DNA from: Phytoactinopolyspora alkaliphila
GTDB lineage: Bacteria; Actinomycetota; Actinomycetes; Jiangellales; Jiangellaceae
Direction of reading: 5' to 3'
Assembly (NCBI RefSeq): GCF_010550695.1
Contig: NZ_JAAGOB010000003.1
Location: 310,001 to 374,000, forward strand
Length of the DNA stretch: 64,000 nucleotides
Part shown: positions 1,252-26,986 of the stretch, one piece after another
Numbering within the stretch: the first letter of the stretch is position 1
Layout: each line of letters starts with the position of its first letter
Notes under the pieces: model-generated
The model's input: the letters and a program-made list of their open reading frames with translations, nothing else
Database searches by the model: none
What the model was told of the DNA's origin: nothing
Program-made: the position numbers and the translations under genes

Positions 1252-2301
1252 GTGCGCCGGGTCATGAAACTTGCCGCGGGATTCGCCACCGCGGCCATGC
1301 TGCTCACAGCATGTGCGAGCGACGATGACGGTACCGACGACCCCACCACCGGCACCGACGGTGAGGGCGCGTCCGGAGAGGACGTCCAGGTCGGCATGGC
1401 CTTCGACGTCGGTGGCCGGGGAGACCGGTCCTTCAACGACTCGGCTGCGGCTGGTCTCGACCGGGCGGGCGAGGAACTGGGCGTCACATTCCAGGATCTG
1501 TCTCCCGCGTCGGACGGCTCCAACCGCGATGAGTTGCTGCGCGAGCTCGCCGACGGTGGCCACAACCCGATCCTCGGTATCGGTTACGCCTTCTTCGAGG
1601 TCATGGACACCGTCGCCGACGAGTACCCCGACGTGCAGTTCATTCGGATCGACGGGCCGCCCAGCGACCGCGAGAACGTCGCCGTCATGACGTTCGCCGA
1701 AGAGCAGGGCTCTTTCCTCATGGGAGTGGCGGCGGCGCTGAAGACCGAGACCGGTCAGGTCGGCATCGTCGGCGGTAACGAGGGCGAGGTCATCAACGCG
1801 TTCGGCGCCGGATTCAAGCAGGGCGTGGAGGCGGTCGACCCGTCGATCGAAATTGAAGACCAGCGCTTGTCTCCCGGCGAGGAGCCGGCCGGGTTCGCCG
1901 ACCCCGCCGGCGCCCGGGTGGCCGCCGAGGCGATGTACCAGCGCGGCGTCGACATCATCTACACGCCCGCCGGTGATTCCAACGTCGGCACGTTCCAGGC
2001 CGCGGCCGAGGCCGGCAAGTGGGCCATCGGCACCGACTCCGACCAGTATGAAACGGTCGGGGACCCGGAGCTGCAGGAAGCGATCCTGACGTCGATGCTC
2101 AAGCGGGTCGACAGCGCTGTGTTCGAAAGCATCAACACCTTCATCGAGGGCGGGGACGTCGAGTCCACGTCCTACGACCTGTCCGACGAAGGCGTGGGCT
2201 ACTCCACCAGCGGCGGGTTCATCGACGACATCACCGACGAGCTGGACGACTACAAACAGCAGATCATCGACGGTGAGATCGAGGTCAGCCGCACCGAGTG
2301 A
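1252..2301 (+). CDS. BMP-family substrate-binding lipoprotein (nucleoside ABC transporter)
   Basis: Extracytoplasmic substrate-binding lipoprotein of the basic membrane protein (Bmp/PnrA/TmpC) family, whose characterised members bind purine and pyrimidine nucleosides. The signal peptide ends in the lipobox LLTAC with the lipidated Cys at residue 21, followed by an acidic Asp/Thr/Gly linker. The family signature DVGGRGDRSFNDSA opens the first lobe, and IIYTPAGDSN and AIGTDSDQ lie in the second. The GTG start at 1252 has a GAAGGGAG ribosome site ten bases upstream. It is the first gene of a tightly packed operon with the ATPase, two permeases and cytidine deaminase, which supports nucleosides as the cargo. 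Confidence 0.93.
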   Translation: MRRVMKLAAGFATAAMLLTACASDDDGTDDPTTGTDGEGASGEDVQVGMAFDVGGRGDRSFNDSAAAGLDRAGEELGVTFQDLSPASDGSNRDELLRELADGGHNPILGIGYAFFEVMDTVADEYPDVQFIRIDGPPSDRENVAVMTFAEEQGSFLMGVAAALKTETGQVGIVGGNEGEVINAFGAGFKQGVEAVDPSIEIEDQRLSPGEEPAGFADPAGARVAAEAMYQRGVDIIYTPAGDSNVGTFQAAAEAGKWAIGTDSDQYETVGDPELQEAILTSMLKRVDSAVFESINTFIEGGDVESTSYDLSDEGVGYSTSGGFIDDITDELDDYKQQIIDGEIEVSRTE

Positions 2302-3908
2302 CCGTGGACGCCGAGCCAGCGCCGGTCATCGAGCTGACCGGCATCACAAAGCGCTTCCCCGGGGTGGTCGCCAATCGCGACGTCCACCTCGCGGTGCGAC
2401 ATGGCGAAGTGCACGCCGTCGTCGGTGAGAACGGCGCGGGCAAGTCGACGCTGATGAAGATCCTCTACGGCATGTACAAGCCGGACGAGGGCACCATCAG
2501 CGTCGACGGTCACCCGGTCGAGTTCGGAAGTCCGAAGGACGCCATCGCCGCCGGCATCGGCATGGTGCACCAGCACTTCATGCTGGCGGACAACTTCACC
2601 GTCCTGGAGAACATCGTGCTCGGCGCAGAGCCCCGGGCCGGGGTTCGCCTCGACTTCGCGGCGGCCCGAGAGCGGATCGAGGAGACGTCCGAGCGGTACG
2701 GCTTGGGCTTGCGTCCTGACCGGCTGGTCGAAGAGCTCAGCGTGGCCGACCGGCAGCGGATCGAGATCGCCAAGGTGCTCTACCGGGGCGCCCGCGTGCT
2801 CATCCTGGATGAGCCGACGGCAGTTCTCGTCCCGCAGGAGGTGGACGCGCTCTTCTCCAACCTGGCAGAACTGCGTGCCGCCGGGCTGTCGGTGATCTTC
2901 ATCAGCCACAAGCTCGACGAGGTGCGCCAGGTGGCGGACCGGATCACGGTGATCCGCCGCGGGTCGACGGTCGCCACCGTGGACGACCCACAGGCCACGT
3001 CGTCGCGGCAGCTGGCACACCTGATGGTCGGAAGTGAACTGCCCACACCGGAGACCACCGAGTCGACCGTGACCGACGTGGTCGAGCTGGCGGCCTCGGG
3101 TCTCGCGCTCAGTTCGCAAGACGGCCCTGACCTCCTGCATGACGTCACCTTCGAGGTCCGGCGCGGCGAGATCGCCGGCTTCGCCGGCGTCGAAGGGAAC
3201 GGGCAGAGCGAGCTGGTCGAGGCCATCATGGGCCTGCGCAAGCCCGATGCCGGGCTGCTGAGGCTGGGCGACGACGACATGACGTCGTGGCCGGCTCACC
3301 AGCGGCGGATGGCCGGCATCGGTTTCATCCCCGAAGATCGGCACCGGCAGGCCCTGCTTCTCGACGCGCCCCTCTGGGAGAACCGGCTGCTCGGGTGGCA
3401 GGGCAATCCGCCCGCCGGTGGGCGGTTCTGGATCCGGCCGCAGGCTGCCCGGGCCGAGGCCGCGACGATCATGCGGGAGTACGACGTGCGGGCGCCCGGG
3501 CCGGACACGATCGCCGACGCGCTCTCGGGTGGTAACCAGCAGAAGTTCGTCATAGGCAGGGAGATGAGCACCACGTTGCGTGTGCTCGTCGCCGCTCACC
3601 CCACGCGCGGCGTGGACGTGGGCGCTCAGTCCGCCATCTGGGACCGATTGCGTGAGGCGCGCGCCGCCGGGCTTGCGACGGTACTGGTCTCCGCCGACCT
3701 GGAGGAGCTCCTCGGCCTGTCCGACACGCTCTACGTGCTATTCCGCGGGCGGATCGTCGCCAGGCTCGATCCGGCCGAGGTGACGCCGGAACTGCTAGGT
3801 AGCTACATGACCGGAGCCGCCGGGCAGGAAGGCGCACGCTTCACAACGGGGGACGCCGCCGGGGAAGAGCAGGCGGCGCGGGCCGACACGGAGGAGGAGA
3901 GCCGGTGA
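2298..3908 (+). CDS. Nucleoside ABC transporter ATP-binding protein (tandem NBDs)
   Basis: A 536-residue double ATPase of the sugar/nucleoside importer type. The first nucleotide-binding domain has Walker A GENGAGKST at residues 43-51, a degenerate signature LSVADRQ near 147 and Walker B LILDEPTAVL near 168. The second domain has a degenerate P-loop (GVEGNGQSE), a good signature LSGGNQQ and a weak Walker B (LVAAHPTRGVDVG). This asymmetry is typical of the RbsA/YufO group, where one site hydrolyses ATP. The GTG start overlaps the stop of the lipoprotein gene by four bases (GTGA), so the two are probably translationally coupled. Confidence 0.93.
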   Translation: MTVDAEPAPVIELTGITKRFPGVVANRDVHLAVRHGEVHAVVGENGAGKSTLMKILYGMYKPDEGTISVDGHPVEFGSPKDAIAAGIGMVHQHFMLADNFTVLENIVLGAEPRAGVRLDFAAARERIEETSERYGLGLRPDRLVEELSVADRQRIEIAKVLYRGARVLILDEPTAVLVPQEVDALFSNLAELRAAGLSVIFISHKLDEVRQVADRITVIRRGSTVATVDDPQATSSRQLAHLMVGSELPTPETTESTVTDVVELAASGLALSSQDGPDLLHDVTFEVRRGEIAGFAGVEGNGQSELVEAIMGLRKPDAGLLRLGDDDMTSWPAHQRRMAGIGFIPEDRHRQALLLDAPLWENRLLGWQGNPPAGGRFWIRPQAARAEAATIMREYDVRAPGPDTIADALSGGNQQKFVIGREMSTTLRVLVAAHPTRGVDVGAQSAIWDRLREARAAGLATVLVSADLEELLGLSDTLYVLFRGRIVARLDPAEVTPELLGSYMTGAAGQEGARFTTGDAAGEEQAARADTEEESR

Positions 3909-5041
3909 CGCGCCTGCTCGGATGGTGGCGGCGCATCGCCCCGACACTCGTCGCCCTGGGCGTCGCCCTGGCCGTCACGGCAGTCTTCATCCTCATCATC
4001 GGCGAGAACCCCATCGCGGCGCTCGTCGCCCTGTTCGACTTCGGTGAGACCCCGGTCGCGCAGGCCAACTCGATCGGCGTGTGGATCAACCGGGCTGCGC
4101 CGCTGTTCCTCGCCGGCCTAGCCGTGAGCATCGGCTTTCGCATGGGGCTGTTCAACATCGGCGTGGAAGGCCAGTACCGGATCGCCACCGTCGTGGCTGC
4201 TGGGCTCGGTGCCGCGATCGTCCTGCCCGCGCCTCTGCACATCCTGGTGATCACGCTGATCGCGATGGCGGCCGGTGCCGCCTACGCGGCGATTCCGGCG
4301 ATCCTCAAGGTGACCCGCGGCGTCAGCGAGGTCATCTCCACCATCATGCTGAACGCGATCGCCATCGGCATCGCCGCGTATCTGATCCGCTCGCCGTTCG
4401 TGGACCCGGAGCTCGGCGCGGGCGAGAACGTCGCCACCACCAGGTTGCCCGAATCCGCGCACTTCCCCGGTCTGAACGAACTGTTCGGCGTCCTCGGCCT
4501 GGAAGAGCCCCGGCGCCCGGTGCACGGGTTCGTCGTCGTCGCGATCGTCGTCGGGGTCGTCGTCGCTGTCATCCTCTCCCGTTCCCGGTTCGGCTTCGAA
4601 CTGCGAGCGAGCGGGCTGAGTGCGCTCGCGGCGACCGCTAACGGGATCTCGTCGCGTGCCATGGTGGTCAAGGCGATGCTGTTCTCTGGAGCCCTGGCCG
4701 GATTGGTCGGACTGTCCGACCTGCTGGGCTCGGCGCACCGGTTCCAGCCGGACTCGTTCGTCGCCGGCTATGGGTTCACCGGCATCGCGGTGGCCCTGCT
4801 CGGGCGCAACCGGCCAGGCGGCATCGCGCTGGCGGCCCTGCTCTTCGCCTTCCTCGATCGTGCCGGTCCCCGGTTGCAGTCCGAAGGGATTCCCCCGGCA
4901 GCGGTGACGATCATGCAGGGCATTGTGGTGCTGTCTGTGCTGATCGTCGACGAGGTGGCGCGGCGGCGGCTGCGTCGTCGTGAAGAACGACGCGCCCGCG
5001 CCCAGGACCAGGCCACGACCCCGGTGGAGGTGGCGTCGTGA
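3905..5041 (+). CDS. Nucleoside ABC transporter permease (first)
   Basis: Integral membrane permease of 378 residues in the BPD_transp_2 (branched-chain amino acid/ribose/nucleoside) family. Many hydrophobic helices alternate with short loops; the family motif FNIGVEGQYRI lies in the first third and the conserved cytoplasmic stretch RASGLSALAATANGIS in the second half. It starts with a GTG overlapping the stop of the ATPase gene by four bases and overlaps the next permease in the same way. It should form a heterodimeric channel with that permease. The C-terminus is a short charged Arg-rich cytoplasmic tail. Confidence 0.92.
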   Translation: MTRLLGWWRRIAPTLVALGVALAVTAVFILIIGENPIAALVALFDFGETPVAQANSIGVWINRAAPLFLAGLAVSIGFRMGLFNIGVEGQYRIATVVAAGLGAAIVLPAPLHILVITLIAMAAGAAYAAIPAILKVTRGVSEVISTIMLNAIAIGIAAYLIRSPFVDPELGAGENVATTRLPESAHFPGLNELFGVLGLEEPRRPVHGFVVVAIVVGVVVAVILSRSRFGFELRASGLSALAATANGISSRAMVVKAMLFSGALAGLVGLSDLLGSAHRFQPDSFVAGYGFTGIAVALLGRNRPGGIALAALLFAFLDRAGPRLQSEGIPPAAVTIMQGIVVLSVLIVDEVARRRLRRREERRARAQDQATTPVEVAS

Positions 5042-6312
5042 CCGGCAGCACGGGACCCAAGATCATGACCCGCCCCGAAGGCGCCGCGTTGCGCCTCTCG
5101 CGGACTCGCAGGATGCTGCTCATCCTCGCCCTGGGATTCGTGGCGCTGTCCGCGGTACGCGTGATCACCGGGGAAACTGTCCTGACCAGCAGCGGCACCG
5201 CGCGCGCCATGCTGATCCTCGCGTTGCCGATCGGCATGTGCGCCTTGGGCGGGCTGGTCGCCGAGCGGGCCGGAGTGATCAACATCGGCCTCGAAGGCAT
5301 GATGATCCTCGGAACGTGGGGTGCCGGATTCGGCGGGTGGCACTATGGGCCATGGGGAGCGCTGCTCGGCGCCCTGATCGGCGGCGCGTTCGGCGGTCTC
5401 ATCCATGCGCTGGCCACAGTGACGTTCGGTGTCGACCACATCGTCAGCGGCGTGGCGATCAACCTGGTGGCGGCAGGCTTGGTGCGGTTCCTGTCCGAGG
5501 CCGTCTACGCCGACGGCGCGCAGGGCGGCGGGCCGACCCAGTCCCCGCCGATCGGGTCCGCGGCGAGTTTCAGCATTCCGGTGCTGTCCTCGGGACCGAA
5601 CCTGCTCGGGCGCCTGGAGGACACCGATCTTCCGGTGCTGTCCGACCTCGGCGGTGTCCTGTATGGGCTGACCAGCGGGTTGACCGCCTTCGCGTTGATC
5701 GCGCTGGCCATGCTGCCGCTCACCTGGTTCGTGTTGTGGCGCACCGCCCTTGGCCTGCGCTGGCGTTCTGCCGGCGAGAATCCGGTAGCGGCGGAGTCGC
5801 TGGGCGTCAACGTCTACCGCATGAAATACCTCGCGGTGATCACCAGCGGCGCGCTTGCCGGCCTGGGTGGCCTTATGCTGGTGCTGTTCACGGGCTCCTA
5901 CCGCGAAGGACAGACCGGTGGACGCGGTTATATCGGCCTCGCGGCGATGATTTTCGGAAACTGGCGGCCCGGAGGGTTGGCCGCCGGTTCCGGACTCTTC
6001 GGGTACTCCGATGCTGTCCGTCTCCGCGCGTCAAGCTCGGCCGCTGTGCTGGCACTTTTGCTGTTCGTGGGTATCCTGCTGGCCGCCGTGGGTGTGTGGG
6101 ATCTGTACCGCCGGCGCTTCGTGCTCAGCGCGGTGCTGCTGGTCCTGGCCGGAGCGGCCATCGTCGGCTCGCTGGCGCTCGACGCGCTGCCCAGCGAGGT
6201 CACCACCATGACTCCGTACCTGGTCACTCTCGCGGTGCTGGCCTCGGCGACGCAGCGGCTCCGGCCACCTGCCGCCGACGGCATGCGATATCGGCGCGGT
6301 GAGGAACACTGA
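5038..6312 (+). CDS. Nucleoside ABC transporter permease (second)
   Basis: Second permease of the importer, 424 residues, with the paralogous family motif INIGLEGMMILG and the conserved loop RSAGENPVAAESLGVNVYRMK. Its C-terminus is longer than its partner's by roughly 100 residues and adds two or three hydrophobic segments (LALLLFVGILLAAVGVW, AVLLVLAGAAIVGSLAL). The GTG start overlaps the preceding gene by four bases. The ORF runs 14 bases past the most upstream possible start of cdd, but cdd probably starts further down (see next entry). Confidence 0.92.
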   Translation: MTGSTGPKIMTRPEGAALRLSRTRRMLLILALGFVALSAVRVITGETVLTSSGTARAMLILALPIGMCALGGLVAERAGVINIGLEGMMILGTWGAGFGGWHYGPWGALLGALIGGAFGGLIHALATVTFGVDHIVSGVAINLVAAGLVRFLSEAVYADGAQGGGPTQSPPIGSAASFSIPVLSSGPNLLGRLEDTDLPVLSDLGGVLYGLTSGLTAFALIALAMLPLTWFVLWRTALGLRWRSAGENPVAAESLGVNVYRMKYLAVITSGALAGLGGLMLVLFTGSYREGQTGGRGYIGLAAMIFGNWRPGGLAAGSGLFGYSDAVRLRASSSAAVLALLLFVGILLAAVGVWDLYRRRFVLSAVLLVLAGAAIVGSLALDALPSEVTTMTPYLVTLAVLASATQRLRPPAADGMRYRRGEEH

Positions 6313-6346
6313 CTCGGCGGAGGTTCGTGTGGGCGGAGGTGAGCAC

Positions 6347-6766
6347 GTGAGGGCCGACGAGGTCCAGTGGGACGTCCTGCGGGCGGCAGCCGTCGATGCG
6401 GCACAGCGAGCGTACGCGCCGTATTCGTCGTTCCCCGTTGGTGCGGCGGCGCTCGTCGACGACGGCCGGGTCGTCACGGGCTGCAACGTGGAGAACGCCT
6501 CCTACGGCGTGACCCTTTGCGCCGAATGCGGCCTGGTGTCCGCCCTGGTCGCGTCTGGCGGCGGCCGGCTCGTCGCGTTCACGTGCGTAGGCGGGCAGGA
6601 CCGAGCCAGGATCATGCCCTGCGGGCGCTGCCGCCAGCTACTGTGGGAACACGGTGGCGCCGCCTTGCAGGTCGACACACCAGAGGGGATCCTCAGCATG
6701 GCCGAGGTGCTTCCGCAGGCCTTCGGCCCGGACGATCTGCATGCTGGCGGCGTACGGCCAGACTGA
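6347..6766 (+). CDS. cdd: Cytidine deaminase
   Basis: Zinc-dependent deaminase converting cytidine/deoxycytidine to uridine/deoxyuridine. The small homotetrameric type is indicated by length (139 residues) and motifs: the substrate loop FPVGAAAL, NVENASYG, the CAE zinc/proton-transfer motif in TLCAECG, and PCGRCRQ with the other two zinc cysteines. I place the start at GTG 6347 because GGAGGTGAG lies just upstream with good spacing. GTG 6329 (also preceded by GGCGGAGG) and GTG 6299 are in-frame alternatives giving a longer N-terminus. It is the last gene of the nucleoside importer operon, so imported cytidine is deaminated at once. Confidence 0.95.
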   Translation: MRADEVQWDVLRAAAVDAAQRAYAPYSSFPVGAAALVDDGRVVTGCNVENASYGVTLCAECGLVSALVASGGGRLVAFTCVGGQDRARIMPCGRCRQLLWEHGGAALQVDTPEGILSMAEVLPQAFGPDDLHAGGVRPD

Positions 6767-8521: not shown

Positions 8522-9823
8522 GTGAAAAGCAGCGGTGAAACCCGATTCGACGCAGTGGACGTCATCCGTGCCAAGCGGGACGGGCAGGAGCTCGCCGACG
8601 CCCAGATCGACTGGGTGATCGACGCCTACACTCGCGGTGGCGTCGCCGACGAGCAGATGGCCGCCTTGGCGATGGCCATCCTGCTGAATGGCATGTCCCG
8701 GCGGGAGATCTCCCGCTGGACCGACGCTATGGTCCGGTCCGGGACGCGCATGGACTGGACCGCAGCCGGCCGGCCCACCACCGACAAACACTCGACCGGC
8801 GGGGTCGGCGACAAGATCACGCTGCCGTTGGCACCCACGGTGGCGGCCTGTGGCGCCGCCGTCCCGCAACTTTCCGGGAGAGGGCTCGGACACACCGGCG
8901 GCACATTGGACAAGCTCGAGTCCATACCCGGCTGGCGTGCGTCGTTGTCGGCAGAGGAGATGCAAGCGGTGGTCCGGGACGCCGGGGCCGTGGTGTGCGC
9001 TGCGACGGAGAACCTCGCCCCCGCAGACAAGAAGCTCTACGCTCTGCGGGATGTTACCGGCACCGTGGAGGCGATCCCGCTCATCGCCAGTTCCATCATG
9101 AGCAAGAAGATCGCCGAAGGCACCGGTGCGCTGGTCCTGGACGTGAAGGTCGGCTCAGGGGCGTTTATGAAGGACACCGAGTCGGCGCGGGAGCTGGCCC
9201 GCACCATGGTGGACCTGGGCAGCGACGCCGGCGTCCGGACGGTTGCGTTGCTGACCAATATGCAGACACCGCTGGGTCTCACGGTGGGCAACGCGCTGGA
9301 AGTACGCGAATCCGTCGAGGTGCTCGCGGGCGGCGGGCCGGAGGACGTCGTCGAACTTACCGTGACGCTCGCCCGGGAGATGCTGGCAGCAGCGGGAATC
9401 GACGGCAAGGATCCGGCTGAGGCGTTGCGGGACGGTTCCGCGATGGACGTCTGGCGGGCGATGGTGACAGCGCAGGGCGGTGCTGTGGACGCGCCCCTGC
9501 CCCGGGCGCGCGAAACCCATACCGTGCTCTCCCCGGCTGACGGGGTGCTCAGCCGCCTGGATGCCTACGGTGTGGGAGTCGCGGCCTGGCGGCTGGGTGC
9601 CGGCCGAGCGCGCAAGGAGGACACCGTGCAGGCCGGCGCCGGGGTGGAGATTCACGTCAAACCCGGCGCGGTCGTGGCCGGCGGCGAGCCGTTGCTGACC
9701 CTGCACACCGACGAGCCGGAGCGATTCGACCGTGCCCTTGACGCACTCGACGGGGCGTTCACGATCGCTCCCGTGGGTTCGCGCCCCGATCTGCTTCCCC
9801 TGGTGATCGACCGGGTGGCGTAG
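8522..9823 (+). CDS. deoA: Thymidine / pyrimidine-nucleoside phosphorylase
   Basis: Phosphorolyses thymidine (and possibly uridine) to the base plus (deoxy)ribose-1-phosphate. At 433 residues it has the usual length and the three usual regions: alpha-helical dimer domain (DVIRAKRDGQELADAQIDWVI), phosphate-binding segment KHSTGGVGDKITLPL with the signature SGRGLGHTGGTLDKLES, and the C-terminal domain with KDTESARELARTMVDLG. GTG at 8522 is the only sensible start (MKSSGETRFDAVDVI). It lies downstream of the importer, cdd and the MFS gene on the same strand. Substrate preference between thymidine and uridine cannot be settled here. Confidence 0.95.
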   Translation: MKSSGETRFDAVDVIRAKRDGQELADAQIDWVIDAYTRGGVADEQMAALAMAILLNGMSRREISRWTDAMVRSGTRMDWTAAGRPTTDKHSTGGVGDKITLPLAPTVAACGAAVPQLSGRGLGHTGGTLDKLESIPGWRASLSAEEMQAVVRDAGAVVCAATENLAPADKKLYALRDVTGTVEAIPLIASSIMSKKIAEGTGALVLDVKVGSGAFMKDTESARELARTMVDLGSDAGVRTVALLTNMQTPLGLTVGNALEVRESVEVLAGGGPEDVVELTVTLAREMLAAAGIDGKDPAEALRDGSAMDVWRAMVTAQGGAVDAPLPRARETHTVLSPADGVLSRLDAYGVGVAAWRLGAGRARKEDTVQAGAGVEIHVKPGAVVAGGEPLLTLHTDEPERFDRALDALDGAFTIAPVGSRPDLLPLVIDRVA

Positions 9824-14401: not shown

Positions 14402-14438
14402 AGGGAGAAGGGTGGGAGCCTCGTGTAGCGTCGCCATT

Positions 14439-15569
14439 ATGGTGCCCACCCAGGCGGAGGTTCTCGCAGCACCGAAGGTGGTCTTGCACGACCACCTCGA
14501 CGGTGGGCTGCGCCCGGAGACCGTCATCGAGCTCGCGGCGGAGGCCGGCCACGAGCTGCCAGCGGACTCGGCCGAGGCCCTGCGCGACTGGTTCGTCGCG
14601 GCTGCCGATTCGGACTCGCTGGAGCGGTACCTGGAGACGTTCGAGCACACGGTCGCCGTCATGCAGACTCGGGAGGCGCTGAGCAGAGTCGCCGCCGAGT
14701 GCGCGGAGGATCTGGCCGCCGACGGCGTCGTCTACGCCGAGGTCCGCTACGCGCCGGAACAGCACTTGGAAGGAGGGCTCACCCTCGACGACGTGGTGGA
14801 CGCCGTCGAGACGGGCTTCCGGCTGGGGGAGCGCCGAGCCGCCGACGACGGCCGCCCCATCCGGGTGGCGACACTGCTCACGGCGATGCGTCACGCTGCG
14901 CGCTCGAGCGAGATCGCCGAGCTCGTGGTGCGGTACCGGGACGCGGGGGTGGTCGGGTTCGACATCGCCGGCGCGGAGGCGGGCTTCCCTCCCACGCGTC
15001 ACCTGGACGCGTTCGAGTATCTGCGCAGGGAGAACGCGCACTTCACCATCCATGCGGGCGAGGCGTTCGGGTTGCCGTCCATCTGGGAGGCGCTTCAATG
15101 GTGTGGCGCCGATCGGCTCGGGCACGGTGTGCGGATCGTCGACGACATCCAGGTGGCGGAATCGGGCGAGGTCACGCTGGGCAAGCTGGCCGCCTACGTC
15201 CGTGACAAGCGCATCCCGCTCGAGTTGTGCCCGTCGTCGAACATTCAGACCGGGGCGGCGTCGTCCATCGCGGAGCATCCGTTCGGCCTGCTCGCCAAGC
15301 TGCGGTTCCGCATCACGGTCAACACCGACAACCGGCTGATGAGCGCCACATCGATGTCCCGGGAGCTGTCCCTGCTGTCCGAGGCGTTCGGCTACGACCT
15401 GGACGACTATCAATGGTTCGCGGTCAACGCCCTGAAAAGCGCGTTCATTCCGTTCGACGAGCGGCTGGTCCTGATCAACGATGTCGTCAAGCCGGGCTAC
15501 GCTGCGCTTCGGGCCCAGCGTACGTTGGCTGACCTGCGGCCCGGCCCGGTCAGTCCTCGTTCGGCATGA
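14439..15569 (+). CDS. add: Adenosine deaminase
   Basis: Zinc hydrolase converting adenosine/deoxyadenosine to inosine/deoxyinosine. Visible motifs are the N-terminal metal ligands in [23 protein letters not shown], the zinc His and catalytic Glu in [15 protein letters not shown], and the metal/catalytic Asp pair in [10 protein letters not shown] take ATG 14439 ([19 protein letters not shown]) over GTG 14412, which would add nine uncharacteristic residues. Length is 376. Its 3' end overlaps the convergent pspC-like gene by 20 bases. The product inosine is a substrate for the purine nucleoside phosphorylase at 26162-26986. Confidence 0.95.
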
Positions 15570-19115: not shown

Positions 19116-19988
19116 TCAGATGCCGACCGGGTGCCAGACGGTCTTGGTCTCGAGGAACGACGTGATCCGGTCGAGCCCCGGTTCGGCGGTCCAGTCCGGC
19201 TCGTCGGCCGGGGCCCGGACCACGCGTTTGAGGTTCTCCGCGGCGGCAAGCTCCAGCTCCCGGGCGTGCTCGTCGTCACCCGCCGCACCGGCCAGGTCTA
19301 CCGCGTTGACATCCATGTGTGCGGCGAGCCACGGCGCGGTGTCGCCCATCCGGCCCGTCAGGATGTTCACAACGCCACCAGGTACGTCCGACGTGGCCAG
19401 GACCTCACCGAGCGTGATGGCCGGCAGCGGGCGTTCGTACGACGACGCCACCACGGCCGTGTTGCCGCTGACCAGCACCGGAGCCAAAACGGACACCAGG
19501 CCGAGGAGCGACGAGCGCTGCGGCGCCAGGACAGCGACCACACCCGTGGGCTCCGGCACCGAGAAGTCGAAGTAAGGCCCCGCCACCGGGTTGCTCGACC
19601 CCACCACCTGGGCGATCTTGTCCGTCCAACCCGCGTACCAGACCCAGCGATCGATCGACTCGTCGACAGCCTTCTCCGCCTTGCCACGGCTGAGGCCCTC
19701 ACCGGCCGCGACCTCGTCGACGAACTGCGCGCGGCGCCCTTCCATCACCTCGGCCACCCGGTACAGCACCTGGCCGCGGTTGTAGGCGGTGGCACGGGAC
19801 CAGCCCGCAAACGCCTTGCGAGCGGCCACGACGGCATCCCGGGCGTCCTTGCGCGACGCATGCGCCGCGTTCGCGAGGAACCGGCCCTTCGTGTCGGTGA
19901 CCTGATAGGACCGGCCCGACTCCGAACGCGGGAACTTCCCGCCGATGTACAGCTTGTACGTCTTCTTCACGGCCAGCCGTTCGCTCAC
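19116..19988 (-). CDS. Short aldehyde dehydrogenase-like protein, probable pseudoenzyme
   Basis: ALDH-superfamily protein of 290 residues, far shorter than the usual 480-500. The N-terminal NAD-binding part is recognisable (KLYIGGKFPRSESGRSYQV, KDARDAVVAARKAFAGWSRATAYNRGQVLYRVAEVMEGR, PGGVVNILTGR). The catalytic domain is missing: there is no GQxCxA-type cysteine, and the catalytic Asn region reads LAPQRSSLLG. I place the start at GTG 19988, which has GGAGGG upstream; the open frame to 20090 lies in front of it. It follows the full-length ALDH gene on the same strand with about 90 bases between. Similar short ALDHs beside deoC occur in other actinomycetes, so it is probably an evolved partner, not a fresh truncation. 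Confidence 0.75.
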   Translation of the reverse strand: MSERLAVKKTYKLYIGGKFPRSESGRSYQVTDTKGRFLANAAHASRKDARDAVVAARKAFAGWSRATAYNRGQVLYRVAEVMEGRRAQFVDEVAAGEGLSRGKAEKAVDESIDRWVWYAGWTDKIAQVVGSSNPVAGPYFDFSVPEPTGVVAVLAPQRSSLLGLVSVLAPVLVSGNTAVVASSYERPLPAITLGEVLATSDVPGGVVNILTGRMGDTAPWLAAHMDVNAVDLAGAAGDDEHARELELAAAENLKRVVRAPADEPDWTAEPGLDRITSFLETKTVWHPVGI

Positions 19989-20079
19989 GCGCCACCCTCC
20001 ATCCGCAGATAGGCGCCGTGCTTTCTGGTCGCGATCTGGTGCTCGCTCGTTTCGCGGACGGCACCGCTCGTTCCTCGCG

Positions 20080-21534
20080 TCACCGGCCACTCCGCTCGCT
20101 CGGCACCAGATACGCTCCTAGCCCATGCCGGCCGCCCTCGCGCCCGTAACCGGACTCCTTGTACCCGCCGAACGGTGACGTCGGGTCGAACTTATTGAAG
20201 GTGTTCGCCCAAACCACACCGGCACGCAGCTGCTGAGACATCCATAGGATCCGCGACCCCTTGTCCGTCCACACACCGGCCGACAGGCCGTACGGGGTGT
20301 TGTTGGCCTTCTCCACCGCCTCGGCCGGAGTGCGGAACGTGAGCACCGACAGGACCGGGCCGAAGATCTCCTCCCGGGCGATCCGGTGTGCCTGGCTCAC
20401 CCCGGTGAAGACCGTGGGCGCGAACCAGAACCCTCGCTCGGGGAGAACGCACTCCGGAGACCAGCGCTCGGCGCCCTCGGCCTCGCCCACCTCGGAGAGC
20501 TCCCGGATGCGGGTCAGCTGTTCCGCGGAGTTGATCGCGCCGACATCGGTGTTCTTGTCCAGCGGGTCGCCGACGCGCAGAGTGGCGAGGCGCCGCTTGA
20601 GCCGGGCCAGGACGTCGTCGTACACCGACTCCTGCACAAGAAGCCGCGAACCAGCACAGCACACATGCCCCTGGTTGAAGAAGATGCCGTTGACGATGCC
20701 CTCGACGGCTTGGTCGAGAGGTGCGTCGTCGAAGACGATATTGGCCGCCTTGCCGCCGAGCTCCAGCGTGGCCTTCTTCGACGTCCCGGCGACGCTGCGG
20801 GCGATCGCCTTGCCGACCTCGGTGGAGCCGGTGAAGGCCACCTTGTCCACGTCCGGGTGCTCGACCAGCAGCCGGCCGGTCTCCCCGGCGCCGGTGAGGA
20901 TGTTCACCACGCCGGGCGGCAGGTCGGCCTGCTGGCAGATCTCGGCGAACAGCAGCGCCGTCAACGGCGTGGTCTCGGCCGGCTTCAGGACCACCGTGTT
21001 CCCGGTGGCCAGCGCCGGCGCGATCTTCCAGGCGAGCATCAGCATGGGGAAGTTCCACGGGATGATCTGGCCCGCCACGCCGTGCGGCCGCGGGTCGACG
21101 CCGTATCCGGCGTACTCCAGCTTGTCGGCCCACCCCGCGTAGTAGAAGAAGTGTGCCGCCACCAGCGGGATGTCCACGTCACGTGACTCGCGGATCGGCT
21201 TGCCGTTGTCGATGGACTCCAGCACCGCGAGCTCTCGGGCGCGTTCCTGGATGATCCGTGCGATCCGGAACAGGTACTTGCCGCGATCCCGGCCGGACAT
21301 CTTCGACCAGGTCTGGCTGAACGCCTTGCGGGCGGCGGCGACGGCTCGATCGACGTCCGTCACGCCGGCCTGCGCGATGTCGGCGAGTACTTCTTCGTTG
21401 GCCGGGTTGATCGACTTGAACGACGCGCCGTCCGCCGGATCGGTGAACTCGCCGCCGATGAACAGCCCATACGAGCTCTTGATGTCGACGACGGCCCGCG
21501 ACTCGGGCGCCGGCGCATACTCGAACGTCACCAT
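20080..21534 (-). CDS. Aldehyde dehydrogenase (NAD+-dependent)
   Basis: Full-length ALDH of 484 residues. Motifs: FIGGEFTDPADGASF, IIPWNFPMLMLAWKIAPALATGNTVVLKPAE (Rossmann and catalytic Asn), FTGSTEVGKAIA, the general-base Glu in LELGGKAANIVFDD, and the nucleophilic Cys in NQGHVCCAGSRLLV. The ATG at 21534 (MVTFEYAP) starts five bases after the deoC stop, so the two are one operon. DeoC releases acetaldehyde, and this enzyme is well placed to oxidise it to acetate (inference from context). The reading frame extends upstream through deoC but that part is a shadow. Confidence 0.93.
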   Translation of the reverse strand: MVTFEYAPAPESRAVVDIKSSYGLFIGGEFTDPADGASFKSINPANEEVLADIAQAGVTDVDRAVAAARKAFSQTWSKMSGRDRGKYLFRIARIIQERARELAVLESIDNGKPIRESRDVDIPLVAAHFFYYAGWADKLEYAGYGVDPRPHGVAGQIIPWNFPMLMLAWKIAPALATGNTVVLKPAETTPLTALLFAEICQQADLPPGVVNILTGAGETGRLLVEHPDVDKVAFTGSTEVGKAIARSVAGTSKKATLELGGKAANIVFDDAPLDQAVEGIVNGIFFNQGHVCCAGSRLLVQESVYDDVLARLKRRLATLRVGDPLDKNTDVGAINSAEQLTRIRELSEVGEAEGAERWSPECVLPERGFWFAPTVFTGVSQAHRIAREEIFGPVLSVLTFRTPAEAVEKANNTPYGLSAGVWTDKGSRILWMSQQLRAGVVWANTFNKFDPTSPFGGYKESGYGREGGRHGLGAYLVPSERSGR

Positions 21535-21539
21535 CGTGA

Positions 21540-22490
21540 TCAGTCCAGGGTGAAGTAGTCGGGGCCGGCGTAGCGGCCGGTGGTCATCTTCTGCCGCTGC
21601 ATGAGCAGGTCGTTGAGCAGGCTCGACGCCCCGATCCGGAACCAGTCCGGGCTCAGCCAGGCGGCGCCCGCTGTCTCGTTGACCAGCACCAGGTACTTGA
21701 TGGCGTCCTTGGTGGTCCGGATGCCGCCGGCCGGCTTGACGCCCACCTGGCGCCCGGTGATGTCGAGGAAGTCGCGGACCGCCTCGAGCATGATCAGGGT
21801 GACCGGCAGGGTCGCCGCCGGCGATACCTTGCCGGTGCTGGTCTTGATGAAGTCGGCGCCGGCCAGCATCGCCAGCCACGAGGCGCGGCGGACATTGTCG
21901 TAAGTGGCGAGTTCGCCCGTCTCCAGGATGACCTTCAGGTGGGCGCTGCCGCAGGCTTGCTTGACCGTGCTGATCTCCTCGAAGACCTGCGCGTACCGGC
22001 CGGCGAGAAACGCTCCGCGATCGATGACCATGTCGACCTCGTCGGCGCCGGCGGCCACCGCGGCACGTGTGTCGGCCTGTTTGACCTCCAGCGTGGTACG
22101 TCCGGACGGGAAGCCGGTGGCGACGCTGGCCACCTTGACGCCGCTCCCGCGCAGGGCTGCTTCGGCGGTGCTCACCAGGTCCGGGTAGACGCAGATGGCG
22201 GCGACCCGGGGGACGCTGGGGTCGGACGGATCGGGACGCTGCGCCTTGGCGCACAACGCGCGGACCTTGCCGGGGGTGTCCTGGCCCTCGAGCGTGGTGA
22301 GGTCGATCATGGAGATGGCCAGGTCGATGGCGAACTGCTTGGCCGTGGTTTTGATGGAACGGCTGGCCAGCGTGGCCGCCCGTGCTTCCGCGCCTACCTG
22401 ATCGACGCTGGGCAGGCCGAGCAGGAACTGGCGCAGCGACGCCTGTGACGACGTCACGTCGGCCAGGTGCGCCTCATTGAGCACAGTCAC
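21540..22490 (-). CDS. deoC: Deoxyribose-phosphate aldolase
   Basis: Class I aldolase cleaving 2-deoxyribose-5-phosphate to glyceraldehyde-3-phosphate and acetaldehyde. The Schiff-base lysine lies in DFIKTSTGKVSP and the second active-site lysine in GVKPAGGIRT; AICVYPDLV and ATGFPSGRTTLEVK are other family motifs. I choose GTG 22490 (MTVLNEAHLADVTS), giving 316 residues, the size of actinobacterial DeoC. The open frame continues far upstream over the divergent nagA gene but without coding features. It is first in an operon with the two ALDH genes. Confidence 0.94.
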   Translation of the reverse strand: MTVLNEAHLADVTSSQASLRQFLLGLPSVDQVGAEARAATLASRSIKTTAKQFAIDLAISMIDLTTLEGQDTPGKVRALCAKAQRPDPSDPSVPRVAAICVYPDLVSTAEAALRGSGVKVASVATGFPSGRTTLEVKQADTRAAVAAGADEVDMVIDRGAFLAGRYAQVFEEISTVKQACGSAHLKVILETGELATYDNVRRASWLAMLAGADFIKTSTGKVSPAATLPVTLIMLEAVRDFLDITGRQVGVKPAGGIRTTKDAIKYLVLVNETAGAAWLSPDWFRIGASSLLNDLLMQRQKMTTGRYAGPDYFTLD

Positions 22491-22764
22491 GAGTCCGAGT
22501 CTAGTGCCCTGCGTGAGAACTCCTTTGTCACCGTCTCTGCCGCCCATGCGGCGCCTTGCTGCGTTGTCGTCGTCGCTCGATGGTTCCACATCGAACTCCT
22601 CCTCCGCCTTGCGATGCATCCACCTGGATGACAGATCCGGCAACAGACTCCCCACGCAGGGCACTGGGCGCTGGCACCGCCAGGGTCGGAACCGTCCGCA
22701 TGCGAGGCTGTACGGCGGGCGGACGCCGCCCCGAGACTCAGGACGACGATTGCGGAGGGACGAC

Positions 22765-24039
22765 GTGGGAGAGCGTGACGACGCCGAACGTGTGGTGGTG
22801 ACCGGGGGGCCGATGGTACTGCCGCAGGGTATCCGTGACGGTCTCGCGGTGGTGGTCGAAGAGCGGCGGATCACCGCGGTGCGGCCACGCACGTCCACCG
22901 ATATCGCGGACGGTGACGCTGATAGCGCCCAGGTCGGCCACGCCGTCGCGGACCGGCAGGAGAGCGGCACGCGGGTCGTGGACGTCGGCGGCCGGCTGAT
23001 CACGCCTGGCCTGATCGACCTCCACGTCCACGGTGGCTGGGGCATGTCCTTCGACCGCTCGAACCAGCCGGGAGGCTCCGACGCCGTTCCCGAACTGCTG
23101 CGCCGCTTCGCTCGCGCCGGTGTCACGTCCATCCAGGCGAGCCTGGTCTCCGCCGAGGTGGACGAGCTGGCTGCCCGGCTGGACGCGATCGCCGCTGGTG
23201 GCCGGGTCCACCGCGACGCTTCCGACGGTGCGGAACTGCTCGGTGTCCACCTCGAGGGTCCGTTCCTGACCCGCGCGCAATGCGGCGCGCATGATCCCGC
23301 GGTGCTGCGGGCACCGTCGTCGGACGACGTCGCCGCCCTACTTGAGCACAGCGGGAGCATCGCGATGATCACCCTGGCGCCGGAGCTTCCCGGTGCGGTC
23401 GAGGCCGTCCGGCGGTTCGCGGAAGCCGGCGTCGTGGTCGCGGCTGGGCACAGCGAGTCTTCTCCCGCCGAGCTCGCCGAGGCCGCTTCGGCGGGCCTGA
23501 GTCACATCACACATTTGTGGAGCGGCCAATCGAGCGTCACCAGGAAAGGGCCGTGGCGCGTGCCGGGCCTGCTGGAGGCGTCGCTCGCGTCGAATTCGCT
23601 GACCGCTGAGGTGATCGCGGACGGGCGGCATCTACCGGCCGAGCTGCTCGAGATCGCCCGCCGATGCCTGGGAGAGCGGCTGATCGTCGTCTCCGACGGT
23701 ACCGAAGGGACGGGGATGCCCAGCGGCTACCGTTACGATCTCGGCACCGTGCGCTGCGAAGTGGGCGACGGGGTCGGCGTCGTCATTGGAGCCGACGCGT
23801 TCGGGGGAAGCACCACCACCGTGGCGCAGATGCTGGAGCACCTGTGCACCGATCTCGGCTGGCCGGTGACCGAGGTGGTCGCGATGGCCACCAGCCGGGC
23901 CGCCGATGTGGCGGGCGTGGGCGCGCGCAAGGGGACCATCGCGGTCGGCATGGATGCCGATCTGGCCGTCTTCGACCCGGGCTTCAGCGCCTGGGGAACG
24001 ATGCTCCGCGGCCACTGGCTCTCCGCTACCGCGGCCTAA
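22765..24039 (+). CDS. nagA: N-acetylglucosamine-6-phosphate deacetylase
   Basis: Amidohydrolase that deacetylates GlcNAc-6-phosphate to GlcN-6-phosphate. Motifs: GLIDLHVHGGWGMSF (metal site region), LGVHLEGPFL (metal Glu), AAGHSESS and ITHLW (metal His residues), and the catalytic Asp in VVSDGTEGTGMPSG. The usual THLFNAM motif is altered to THLWSGQ, so substrate range may differ. The start is GTG 22765, preceded by GCGGAGGGA; the frame is open back to 22477 but that part reads as low-quality sequence. It is divergent from deoC with a spacer of about 270 bases. The TAA stop overlaps a long palindrome. Confidence 0.88.
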   Translation: MGERDDAERVVVTGGPMVLPQGIRDGLAVVVEERRITAVRPRTSTDIADGDADSAQVGHAVADRQESGTRVVDVGGRLITPGLIDLHVHGGWGMSFDRSNQPGGSDAVPELLRRFARAGVTSIQASLVSAEVDELAARLDAIAAGGRVHRDASDGAELLGVHLEGPFLTRAQCGAHDPAVLRAPSSDDVAALLEHSGSIAMITLAPELPGAVEAVRRFAEAGVVVAAGHSESSPAELAEAASAGLSHITHLWSGQSSVTRKGPWRVPGLLEASLASNSLTAEVIADGRHLPAELLEIARRCLGERLIVVSDGTEGTGMPSGYRYDLGTVRCEVGDGVGVVIGADAFGGSTTTVAQMLEHLCTDLGWPVTEVVAMATSRAADVAGVGARKGTIAVGMDADLAVFDPGFSAWGTMLRGHWLSATAA

Positions 24040-24136: not shown

Positions 24137-26011
24137 CTAGAGAGCGAGGACGGCGGATATGCCGTCGCGGAGGGCGGCGAGGCGTTGCCGGGCGACGCTA
24201 CGGGCCGCGTCGACGTCGTCGTTCACCACGTCCTCCACCGCTTCGAGGTAGCACTTCAGCTTCGGTTCGGTCCCGCTCGGCCGGATGATGACCCGCGAGC
24301 CGTTGTCCAGGTAGTAGCGCAGGCCGTCCGTGGGCGGCAGGCCGTAGGCGCCGGTGTGCAGATCCTGGGCCGCCGCCACCGCGGCGCCGCCGAACTCGGC
24401 CGGCGGGTGCCGGCGCAGCCTGCGCATGGCGTCGGTGATGAGCCTCACGTCGCCGACTCGTACGGACAGCTGGTCGGTAACGTGCAGGCCATGCTGCCGG
24501 GCGAGATCATCGAGCACATCGCCGAGCGTGCGGCCGGCCGCCTTCGTCTCGGCGGCCAATTCGGCGAACAGCACCGCCGCGGAGATGCCGTCCTTGTCTC
24601 TCACCGATTCCGGGTCGACGACGTATCCCAGCGCTTCCTCGTAGCCGTACGTGAGGCCCGGAACCCGGGAGATCCACTTGAAGCCGGTGAGCGTCTCGAC
24701 GTGGTCGATTCCGTGCGCCGCCGCGATCCGCCCGAGCAGCCGAGACGAGACGATGGAGTTCACGAAGACACCCGAGCCGGTCTTGCCGGCGAGGTGCGCG
24801 CCCAGCAGTGCTCCCACTTCGTCGCCGTGAAGCATGCGCCACGGACTCCCGGCGGAGGTGGACGCGGGCGAAGGGGACGGGTCAGTGGCCGGCGTGGTGC
24901 CCGGTATGGCCACGGCCAGACGGTCGGCGTCCGGATCGTTGGCGAGTACGACGTCGGCCCCGGCCTGCGTCCCCAGAGTGAGCGCGAGATCGATGGCGCC
25001 GGGTTCCTCGGGGTTGGGGAAGGCGACCGTCGGGAAGTCCGGATCCGGCTCGGCCTGCTCCGGAACCGGTCGGACGTCGGTGAAACCGGCTCTGGCCAGC
25101 GCCTCGACGCATGTGCTTCCACCGACGCCGTGCAACGACGTGAGCACGATCCGCAGGTTCCGGGCCGGCGAGCCGAGCTGGGCGAGCCGTTCGCGTGCGG
25201 CGTCGATACGTTCGCGCAGCGCGGCGATCCGCTCGTCGGCCACGGATTCCTGCCGATCTGAGACGACTCGGCCCGAGCCCGAGCGAGGCGAATCGGGCTG
25301 AGCCGAGGCGGCGCGACCGGGGCCGGAGCCCGGCGTCGCGACGCGCGCGGCGGCGTCGATGTAGGCGTCGACGACATCCTCTCCGATCACCGTCCAGCCG
25401 TCCTCGGCGCGCGGCACCCGGGACGTGTAGTGGACATCGTGGATGTAGGAGGCGATCTCGGCGTCGATGGGGGCGACGATCTGCGCTCCGGCGTCAGGCC
25501 CGCCGAGGTAGACCTTGTAGCCGTTGTCCTGGGGTGGATTGTGGCTGGCGGTGACCATCACGCCCGCGTCGGCGTCGAGGCGCCGGAGGGCGAAGGCGAG
25601 GACCGGTGTCGGAAGCTCGCGCGGCAGGAGCAGCACCTCGACACCCGCGGCCGTCAATACCGCGGCTGTGTCGAGCGCGAAAGTGCGGGATCCGTGCCGT
25701 GCGTCGTATCCGACCACCACCCGGTGCCGCTCTCCGTGTACAGGCTCGCGCATGGAACGCAGGTACTCGGACAGGCCGGCGGCGGCGCGGATGACCACCG
25801 AACGGTTCATCCGGTTCGGGCCGGCTCCGAGCGCGCCCCGCAGGCCGGCGGTGCCGAAGGACAGGAAACCAGCGAATCTGTCCCCGAGGTCGGCCATCGC
25901 GTCGGAGTCGCCGTCGGTGGCGGCCTTGAGCAGGGCGCTCAGTTCGGCTCTCGTCACGGGATCGGGGTCATCGGCAAGCCATGAGTGGGCCTCGTACAGC
26001 ACGTCGTTCAT
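24137..26011 (-). CDS. Phosphohexomutase, PGM2/PmmB-like (possible phosphopentomutase)
   Basis: Alpha-D-phosphohexomutase superfamily, 624 residues. Motifs: FGTAGLRGALGAGPNRMN, the phosphoserine loop VMVTASHNPPQDNGYKVY, the metal loop NDPDADRLAVA, sugar loop GYEEALGYVV and phosphate-binding RPSGTEPKLKCY. The GTAGLRG, TASHNPxxDNGYKVY and GAQI sequences fit the PGM2 subgroup, which includes human PGM2, a phosphopentomutase. The ATG at 26011 has GAGGAGG upstream. An Arg/Ser/Pro-rich insertion of about 50 residues (VATPGSGPGRAASAQ to ERIAALRERID) makes it longer than typical PmmB. Its gene follows punA on the same strand, which fits pentose-phosphate isomerisation. Annotation pipelines would probably call it phosphomannomutase. 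Confidence 0.88.
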   Translation of the reverse strand: MNDVLYEAHSWLADDPDPVTRAELSALLKAATDGDSDAMADLGDRFAGFLSFGTAGLRGALGAGPNRMNRSVVIRAAAGLSEYLRSMREPVHGERHRVVVGYDARHGSRTFALDTAAVLTAAGVEVLLLPRELPTPVLAFALRRLDADAGVMVTASHNPPQDNGYKVYLGGPDAGAQIVAPIDAEIASYIHDVHYTSRVPRAEDGWTVIGEDVVDAYIDAAARVATPGSGPGRAASAQPDSPRSGSGRVVSDRQESVADERIAALRERIDAARERLAQLGSPARNLRIVLTSLHGVGGSTCVEALARAGFTDVRPVPEQAEPDPDFPTVAFPNPEEPGAIDLALTLGTQAGADVVLANDPDADRLAVAIPGTTPATDPSPSPASTSAGSPWRMLHGDEVGALLGAHLAGKTGSGVFVNSIVSSRLLGRIAAAHGIDHVETLTGFKWISRVPGLTYGYEEALGYVVDPESVRDKDGISAAVLFAELAAETKAAGRTLGDVLDDLARQHGLHVTDQLSVRVGDVRLITDAMRRLRRHPPAEFGGAAVAAAQDLHTGAYGLPPTDGLRYYLDNGSRVIIRPSGTEPKLKCYLEAVEDVVNDDVDAARSVARQRLAALRDGISAVLAL

Positions 26012-26073
26012 CGGCGGCCTCCTCGGATCGGTGCGTGGATGCAACCTATCTCGTAGCCCCAGGGCGAATCCCG

Positions 26074-26143
26074 GCATGCCAGGGTTTGTGGTCGCTGTCG
26101 AGGTCGAAATGTCCGATTTGTGGAGCCACAAACCCTGGCATGC
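26074..26143. repeat. 18-bp perfect palindrome between punA and the mutase gene
   Basis: GCATGCCAGGGTTTGTGG (26074-26091) is the exact reverse complement of 26126-26143, with a 34-base loop. Both flanking genes run leftward, so it lies after punA and before the mutase start. It could attenuate or end punA transcription. Confidence 0.65.
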
Positions 26144-26161
26144 GCCGGGATAGAGGGGTGG

Positions 26162-26986
26162 TTAGGGGAGGCGGGCGACAATCGCGGCGAGCAGCGATCC
26201 GATCCGGGGCGCGGCGGCACGGCCGGCCTCGAGTACCTCGGCGTGGCTGAGGGGCTGTGGGCTGATGCCGGCGGCGAGATTGGTCACCAGGGAGATCCCG
26301 AGCACCTCGACACCGGCCTCCCTCGCGGCGATCGCCTCCAGCGCTGTGGACATGCCGACCAGGTCGCCACCGCCACGTTTCGCGAACTGGATCTCTGCGG
26401 GCGTCTCGTAGTGCGGGCCGGGAAACTGGACGTAGACGCCTTCGGGCAACCCGGCGTCCACCTCGCGGGCCACCGCGCGTAGGCGCGACGAGTACAGGTC
26501 GGTGAGGTCCACGAACGTGGCGCCCTCGAGCGGGGACGTGGCGGTCAGGTTGATGTGGTCGCTGATCAGGACCGGTGTGCCAGGAGGCCACTCCAGACGC
26601 AGGCCGCCGCAGCCGTTCGTCAGCACCAGCGTGGAGACCCCGGCAGCCGCAGCCGTCCGGACGCCGTGGACGACGGCCCGCACCCCGCGGCCTTCGTACA
26701 GGTGAGTGCGGGCGCCGAGAACGAGCGCGTGCCGGCCGGTGTCGCCGATCCGGATGGACCGGATGGTGCCGACATGACCGGCCACGGCCGGCCGGCTGAA
26801 ACCGGGGACGTCGGCGCTGGGGAGCTCGGCCACCGTCTCGCCGATCAGTTCCGCGGCTCCGCCCCAGCCGGAGCCCAGGACGAGGGCGACGTCGTGCCGC
26901 TCGATTCCGGTGGCTTCGGCGATATGGCGCGCTGCCTGATCCGCAGCGGCCTGAGGGTCGGCTGCGAGAGTCACGTTCTCGTCCAC
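26162..26986 (-). CDS. punA: Purine nucleoside phosphorylase (trimeric type)
   Basis: Phosphorolyses inosine/guanosine and deoxy forms to base plus (deoxy)ribose-1-phosphate. The 274-residue chain has the trimeric PNP signature: LVLGSGWGG (phosphate Ser), GARTHLYEG (phosphate-binding loop and His), LTNGCGGL, FPGPHYETPAE and the purine-site segment VGMSTALEAIAAREAGVEVLGISLVTNLAAG. Mycobacterial homologues are often named deoD. The ATG at 26986 begins MDENVTLAADPQAAAD. The gene lies upstream of the PGM2-like mutase, so ribose-1-phosphate could be passed on. The gap of 150 bases to the mutase holds a palindrome. Confidence 0.95.
   Translation of the reverse strand: MDENVTLAADPQAAADQAARHIAEATGIERHDVALVLGSGWGGAAELIGETVAELPSADVPGFSRPAVAGHVGTIRSIRIGDTGRHALVLGARTHLYEGRGVRAVVHGVRTAAAAGVSTLVLTNGCGGLRLEWPPGTPVLISDHINLTATSPLEGATFVDLTDLYSSRLRAVAREVDAGLPEGVYVQFPGPHYETPAEIQFAKRGGGDLVGMSTALEAIAAREAGVEVLGISLVTNLAAGISPQPLSHAEVLEAGRAAAPRIGSLLAAIVARLP

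Follow-up and report, generated by a model that had tools for sequence, protein, structure and literature searches.

Which enzyme converts the pentose-1-phosphates released from nucleosides into pentose-5-phosphates in Phytoactinopolyspora alkaliphila? The question is raised by a 64,000-nucleotide stretch of its genome (assembly GCF_010550695.1, contig NZ_JAAGOB010000003.1, positions 310,001 to 374,000; hereafter, the window), in which a gene encoding a mutase of the alpha-D-phosphohexomutase superfamily adjoins punA. The phosphorylases PunA and DeoA release ribose-1-phosphate and deoxyribose-1-phosphate, and the aldolase DeoC requires deoxyribose-5-phosphate; therefore, a phosphopentomutase is expected. 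A preliminary description of the locus had seen no deoB, and had suggested that the mutase may be the missing phosphopentomutase and its usual phosphomannomutase label wrong. The genes on which the question turns are as follows.

24137..26011, minus strand: alpha-D-phosphohexomutase of the PGM2 clade, 624 amino acids, proposed phosphopentomutase (four Pfam domains, motifs, a Shine-Dalgarno-like start, a structure model)
26162..26986, minus strand: punA, purine-nucleoside phosphorylase (TIGR01698, 330.5 bits, cutoff 302.6)
21540..22532 (start approximate), minus strand: deoC, deoxyribose-5-phosphate aldolase (TIGR00126, 193.4 bits, cutoff 117.3)
8522..9823, plus strand: deoA, thymidine phosphorylase (NF004490, 634.2 bits, cutoff 269)

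The nucleoside phosphorylases and DeoC named in that description are thus in place, punA exceeding the PUNP cutoff and the two others the cutoffs of their own models. As for the mutase, we consider it probable that it is a phosphopentomutase with pentose phosphates as its main substrates, and most likely that it replaces DeoB. The case is made by the absence of DeoB from the genome, the exclusion between its clade and canonical DeoB in 296 Actinomycetota genomes, the locus itself, the inventory of paralogues, and the chemistry of the sugar-binding loop, and in these respects the initial suggestion is supported.

DeoB and mutase paralogues in the genome

The genome searched comprises 5.5 Mb and is 99.98% complete. 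Over its whole length, the DeoB metalloenzyme domain PF01676 gave only three matches, of at most 21 bits and all under the cutoff of 24.3; read by eye, they look like phosphatase or sulfatase types. Neither TIGR01696, the model of canonical DeoB, at E 0.001, nor NF009049 (PRK12383), the second NCBIfam phosphopentomutase model, at E 1e-15, has a match in this genome, and hence the lack of a visible deoB extends from the window to the near-complete genome.

A search with PF02878 returned four members of the superfamily, including the window protein. The three others score above NCBIfam cutoffs, one as GlmM (572.8 vs. 447.55 bits), one as a phosphomannomutase/phosphoglucomutase (PMM/PGM; NF007088, 708.1 vs. 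618), and one as a glucose phosphoglucomutase (903.4 vs. 778.05). By contrast, the window protein falls below the cutoff of all seven NCBIfam models that it matches: it reaches 56.3 bits on NF007088 (ManB; cutoff 618), 89.8 on TIGR01455 (GlmM; 447.55), 60.6 on TIGR01132 (glucose phosphoglucomutase; 778.05), and 150 on TIGR03990 (archaeal-type GlmM; 439), the latter being its best NCBIfam match. This suggests that the hexose jobs are already filled in this genome.

The mutase

The window protein carries PGM_PMM domains only: domains I to IV (PF02878, PF02879, PF02880, and PF00408) are all above the Pfam cutoffs, and the DeoB metalloenzyme domain (PF01676, TIGR01696) is absent. The motifs initially reported for it as PGM2-type, GTAGLRG and TASHNPPQDNGYKVY, are both found, as is DPDADR. 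Together with the four domains, the TxSHNP and DxDxDR signatures, the Glu-containing sugar loop, and the SGT phosphate loop place it in the alpha-D-phosphohexomutase superfamily. The catalytic residue is Ser156 (TASHNP), the metal loop is D359-P-D361-A-D363-R, and the phosphate loop is R577-PSGTEPK; across two alignments, one with 18 sequences and one with 43, all of these are invariant or nearly so. The preliminary description called this enzyme PmmB-like; the mutase beside punA is indeed present, whereas the PmmB name is a database-style label that none of our searches assigned.

The open reading frame (ORF) spans 24137-26131 on the minus strand. The translation start is most likely ATG 26011 rather than the opening of the frame at 26131, since GAGGAGG lies immediately 5' of this ATG and several aligned relatives have their N-terminus there.

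The predicted structure has a mean pLDDT of 90.8 and a pTM of 0.91, and among the 50 matches listed, solved chains align to it with Z from 26 to 39.5. We rejected fold likeness as evidence on the substrate, as the hexose mutases 9du5 (Z 39.5) and 1wqa (37.8) score no lower than the phosphopentomutase 9ix8 (36.9). No PGM2-named entry was present among the 54 solved sequences matching the family profile at E 1e-10.

The sugar-binding loop

In the window protein the sugar-binding loop reads YGYEEA (Y-G-Y-E458-E459-A460), and in its three hexose-mutase paralogues GGEQS, GGEHS, and GGEES, i.e., E-x-S. The loop Glu and Ser of human PGM1 hold the C3/C4 hydroxyls of the sugar, according to the accessible text of PMC7101342. 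As described in the available part of PMC5570346, the hallmarks of PGM2 and PGM2L1 are DPDADR, a sugar loop with two Glu (FAFEE), a Pro/Glu phosphate loop with a later Lys, and retention of only the first Arg; Ser follows the Glu pair in PGM2L1 only, and the absence of this residue from PGM2 is suggested to be connected with the preference for pentoses. The window protein, with the metal loop ANDPDADRLA, the two-Glu loop YGYEEA, and the phosphate loop RPSGTEPKLK, has the motifs of the PGM2 group (cd05799) and probably belongs to it, and Ala460, standing where Ser would follow the Glu pair, sets it with PGM2 and apart from PGM2L1. The comparison with PGM2 proposed at the outset thus yields a PGM2-type loop, with two Glu and no Ser. 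We infer that Ala460 matters, since a furanose pentose would offer no free C4 hydroxyl to hold.

The loop also bears on the possibility that the mutase makes glucose-1,6-bisphosphate, which activates other mutases, as PGM2L1 of mammals and Slr1334 of Synechocystis do. PGM2L1 shares the CDD group cd05799 with PGM2, as stated in the accessible part of PMC9426568; however, it has the Ser behind FAFEE that PGM2 lacks (PMC5570346, available part), and the clade of the window protein has Ala with two exceptions. Slr1334, so far as the accessible descriptions go, is assigned to a different group, cd05800. As such a role would, moreover, leave both the gene neighborhood and the exclusion of DeoB described below unexplained, we regard it as very unlikely.

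Two clades and the distribution of DeoB

The nearest relatives are represented by the best 80 of the 559 stretches that a genome scan confirmed, and the wider family by 22 regions from a plasmid collection (one unused, nine of the 22 without annotated features) and by 296 Actinomycetota genomes. An unrooted tree of 132 rows, built by a quick method and with composition varying between rows, splits into two clades with 99% SH-aLRT support. Clade I comprises the window protein, all Actinomycetota members except the PgcA-like ones, and Vibrio and Photobacterium sequences. Clade II is PgcA-like and comprises Bacillota, Bacteroidota, Fusobacterium, Neochlamydia, and a single group of Actinomycetota with 22 genomes. 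L163/G122 and L165/G170, which are not PGM2-type or are incomplete, were excluded from both the tree and the clade counts; L103, which has an EES loop and was read separately, is in neither the alignment nor the tree.

The E-E-A loop is found in all 80 related loci (76 loci and the window by text pattern, three by eye, and L087 read later), and Ala occupies the loop position in 86 of the 88 clade I genomes, all but G186 and G252; in some clade I members, the second Glu is replaced by Gln. Clade II has Ser, retained also in its Actinomycetota members, with the exception of Fusobacterium, whose PgcA-like proteins (L101, L109) have E-E-A loops. Hence we rejected the loop residue as a stand-alone diagnostic, Ser occurring within clade I (G186, G252) and Ala within the PgcA-like clade (Fusobacterium). 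Neither deoB nor deoC was found in the 2.1-Mb record of F. vincentii, and the Acetoanaerobium record has an E-E-S loop and deoC, with no deoB found.

Among the 296 Actinomycetota genomes, TIGR01696 is above its cutoff in 109, and a PGM2-type protein is present in 112. Clade I occurs in 88 genomes; none of these has canonical DeoB, and 84 have a deoC match (E 0.001). For clade II, occurring in 22 genomes, the respective numbers are 9 and 14. The exclusion between clade I and canonical DeoB has a Fisher p-value of 1.3e-22, computed with related genomes and uncorrected for kinship. Counted by hand at the level of families, which are related too, the 86 Ala-type genomes span 20 of 67 families and DeoB 31 of 67, with no family shared (1.3e-7). 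Both Ser-type clade I genomes and two DeoB genomes fall in the same family (f22), but no genome there combines the two enzymes. Five partial DeoB matches (G021, G135, G111, G132, and G202) are below the cutoff, and counting them keeps the overlap with clade I at zero. In the class of P. alkaliphila, canonical DeoB is above the cutoff in none of 246 genomes, and PGM2-type proteins, assigned by score in this survey, are present in 214. The mutual exclusion thus holds for canonical DeoB within Actinomycetota. For other phyla, five single replicons were searched, a 0.6-Mb one from Vibrio and four others with 1.8-2.7 Mb each, and DeoB was found in none.

A different possibility is that the window protein is a general phosphohexomutase of low specificity, e.g., a reserve phosphoglucomutase, and accepts pentose phosphates as well. 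In four annotated clade II regions the mutase gene is adjoined by manA, galE, GH130, or capsule genes, and therefore the wider family appears to handle hexoses; the remaining annotated clade II regions show no clear link, one of them adjoining a 5'-deoxynucleotidase gene. In addition, Corynebacterium glutamicum without pgm keeps some Pgm activity due to an enzyme left unidentified in the accessible part of PMC3755335, and PGM2-type enzymes of bacteria may have remained efficient as phosphoglucomutases, a question left for study in the available text of PMC5570346. On the other hand, the tree sets clade I apart from the PgcA-like sequences with the strong support given above, and clade I has mostly lost the hydroxyl-holding Ser. 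We consider a general hexomutase improbable, and return to the phosphopentomutase.

The locus and gene neighborhoods in relatives

In the window, punA and the mutase gene are codirectional on the minus strand, with the latter 150 bp downstream. Other genes of nucleoside catabolism and its surroundings are the following.

1252..6312, plus strand: four-gene ABC importer of the BMP type (genes called from codon composition; the products of three genes scanned)
6299..6766, plus strand: cdd, cytidine deaminase (NF004064, 186.4 bits, cutoff 74)
14412..15569, plus strand: add, adenosine deaminase (NF006847, 625.5 bits, cutoff 412)
19116..19994, minus strand: half-length aldehyde dehydrogenase paralogue, covering only about the first 250 of ~480 profile positions
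20080..21570, minus strand: aldehyde dehydrogenase adjoining deoC, below the equivalog cutoffs of all listed aldehyde dehydrogenase models
22477-24039, opposite strand to the mutase and deoC: nagA-like gene (TIGR00221, 202.8 bits, below the cutoff of 225.65)

The dehydrogenase adjoining deoC possibly oxidizes acetaldehyde. The best NCBIfam matches of the three importer proteins scanned are BMP/B6-type ABC models, below the cutoff; the neighborhood suggests that the system may import nucleosides.

Neighbors of the best 80 loci were read in the fetched stretches, up to 8 kb on each side. A punA homologue is found in 73 of them, deoC in 63, an aldehyde dehydrogenase homologue in 33, and a homologue of the half-length paralogue in 31. 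In the locus L008, for example, punA, the mutase gene, deoC, and two dehydrogenase genes run in the same direction with no space for a nagA-like gene. In an even draw, 39 of the 88 clade I loci have punA within ~7 kb vs. none of the 22 clade II loci, and for at least one of punA, deoC, deoA, cdd, and add at this distance the numbers are 48 of 88 vs. none of 22; the queries were window proteins, and distant homologues are therefore undercounted.

Two further features of the window adjoin the mutase gene. The nagA-like gene sits between it and deoC, and none of the 80 related stretches showed a homologue of this gene. Within the 150 bp separating punA from the mutase gene there is an 18-nt perfect inverted repeat with arms 34 nt apart (26074-26143). 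Its 18-mer has 27 genomic matches at up to two mismatches vs. zero for the reversed control, which makes a dispersed repeat element probable.

Proposed mechanism

By analogy with the family, the pathway would run as follows. PunA and DeoA would cleave nucleosides into the base and ribose-1-phosphate or deoxyribose-1-phosphate. The mutase, phosphorylated on Ser156 and holding magnesium via D359, D361, and D363, would give its phosphate to C5; the bisphosphate would then flip, and the C1 phosphate would be taken back by the enzyme. The resulting ribose-5-phosphate would enter the pentose phosphate pathway, and deoxyribose-5-phosphate would be passed to DeoC. In the sugar loop, Glu458 is retained, and the Ser gripping the C3/C4 hydroxyls in hexose mutases is replaced by Ala460.

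Phosphopentomutase or phosphomannomutase

Several observations weigh against a pentose role. Both Ser-type members of clade I (G186 and G252, loci L181 and L186, from one family) adjoin punA and deoC and lack DeoB, and therefore Ala is not decisive. Forty of the 296 genomes have deoC with neither DeoB nor a protein classed as PGM2-type; the lack of DeoB alone therefore proves nothing, and these genomes suggest another phosphopentomutase or route, or a different role for DeoC. Outside the class of P. alkaliphila, many loci of clade I have no recognizable nucleoside neighbors, and no nucleoside gene is present in the sole annotated Vibrio region of clade I. As deoB of Vibrio is presumably located on the main chromosome, clade I would coexist with DeoB outside Actinomycetota.

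Moreover, G162, G501, and G414 combine the clade with a DeoB relative of the PRK12383 type, presumably the family of E. coli YhfW, whose function is unproven. TIGR01696 scores members of this NF009049/PRK12383 family below its cutoff, and in these three class-survey genomes, whose proteins were scanned, the weak TIGR01696 matches are NF009049 members above the cutoff; five more genomes of the class have similar weak TIGR01696 scores and, judged by these, would likewise combine such a relative with the clade. NF009049 itself is above its cutoff in one of the 296 genomes (G162, clade I) and in one of 14 control genomes. Accordingly, we rejected an exclusion between clade I and every DeoB-like protein. 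NF009049-type relatives above the cutoff were observed for L256, L257, and L259, in genomes of the same family and class as P. alkaliphila that also bear a PGM2-type enzyme.

The remaining objections come from experiments. Mycobacterial PmmB (Rv3308 and MSMEG_1695) and cg0788 (pmmB) of C. glutamicum are presumably members of this actinobacterial family, encoded beside a deoD/punA gene, and Rv3308 presumably belongs to clade I. The M. tuberculosis gene overexpressed in M. smegmatis gave ~0.6 mU/mg of phosphomannomutase activity in lysate, equal to that of manB, and disruption of MSMEG_1695 halved the mannose and arabinose of lipoglycans, with complementation restoring them; the authors conclude that PmmB is an additional phosphomannomutase (PMC3229593, accessible part). 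This is the only direct experiment we found, and pentose phosphates are not mentioned in the available text of that study. The activity is low, and overexpressed members of the superfamily can be promiscuous.

By this account, the window protein would be PmmB, a second enzyme for the supply of GDP-mannose, and its position beside punA a historical accident. However, the genome already has a PMM/PGM above the NF007088 cutoff, on which the window protein scores poorly; the recognized neighbors are nucleoside genes; and an exclusive distribution of the clade and canonical DeoB is not predicted by a phosphomannomutase role. We therefore find a dedicated phosphomannomutase quite improbable and maintain phosphopentomutase as the main function. 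Hexose activity is quite possible as a secondary function of the same enzyme, and what was called a wrong label may turn out to describe a secondary activity.

Comparison with known systems

We also lean, with less confidence than for the window enzyme itself, toward a wider generalization: that the class Actinomycetes has dropped canonical DeoB and directs the catabolism of nucleosides and DNA sugars through a PGM2-type phosphohexomutase in which the hexose-gripping Ser became Ala, so that the "phosphomannomutase" gene of very many genomes, including mycobacterial ones, would be a phosphopentomutase with secondary effects on mannose. If true, this would supply the missing step in the breakdown of nucleosides by a large bacterial class, correct a gene name that has been copied widely, and call for a reinterpretation of the mycobacterial lipoglycan study. 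In the open-access literature searched, we found neither an assay nor a statement of phosphopentomutase function for actinobacterial PmmB.

The proposed role resembles that of the yeast phosphoribomutase Pgm3/Prm15, presumably a member of the phosphohexomutase superfamily, which likewise acts after purine nucleoside phosphorylase, although in a eukaryote. Deletion of Pgm3 raised ribose-1-phosphate (PMC4039369, accessible part). Human PGM2, a phosphopentomutase (EC 5.4.2.7, cd05799), shares with the window protein, by the motif descriptions available in PMC5570346, the TASH and DPDADR motifs, a two-Glu loop without Ser, and the Pro/Glu phosphate loop, but its loop is FAFEE, in contrast to YGYEEA of the bacterial enzyme. 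To the question raised there, whether the PGM2-type enzymes of bacteria act on pentoses or on hexoses, our data suggest the answer "both, by clade", with a one-residue difference in the loop.

Among prokaryotes, the phosphopentomutase TK1777 of Thermococcus kodakarensis (PDB 9ix8), 27% identical to the window protein, uses the phosphohexomutase fold on pentose phosphates and is linked with DeoC (PMC11641776, accessible text). Gene 0733 of JCVI-syn3A, a putative phosphoglucomutase adjoining deoC and a nucleoside phosphorylase gene, has been proposed to encode a phosphopentomutase (PMC6609329, available part), and the deoC operon of the mycoplasmas M. genitalium and M. pneumoniae contains a putative phosphomannomutase gene together with cytidine deaminase (PMC13274396, available part); these Mollicutes genes are similar to the window in gene context. 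PgcA, the phospho-sugar mutase of Bacillota, belongs to the same PGM2-like family and forms the sister clade, but differs in its Ser loop (except in Fusobacterium), in having some hexose-gene neighbors, and in its coexistence with DeoB, seen in 9 of the 22 genomes of its Actinomycetota group. DeoB, a member of the metalloenzyme superfamily (TIGR01696), catalyzes the reaction proposed for the window mutase, from an unrelated domain family. As phosphopentomutases of the phosphohexomutase type are known in man, yeast, and T. kodakarensis and have been proposed for JCVI-syn3A, the mutase of P. alkaliphila would add a new bacterial clade to an enzyme type that is already known.

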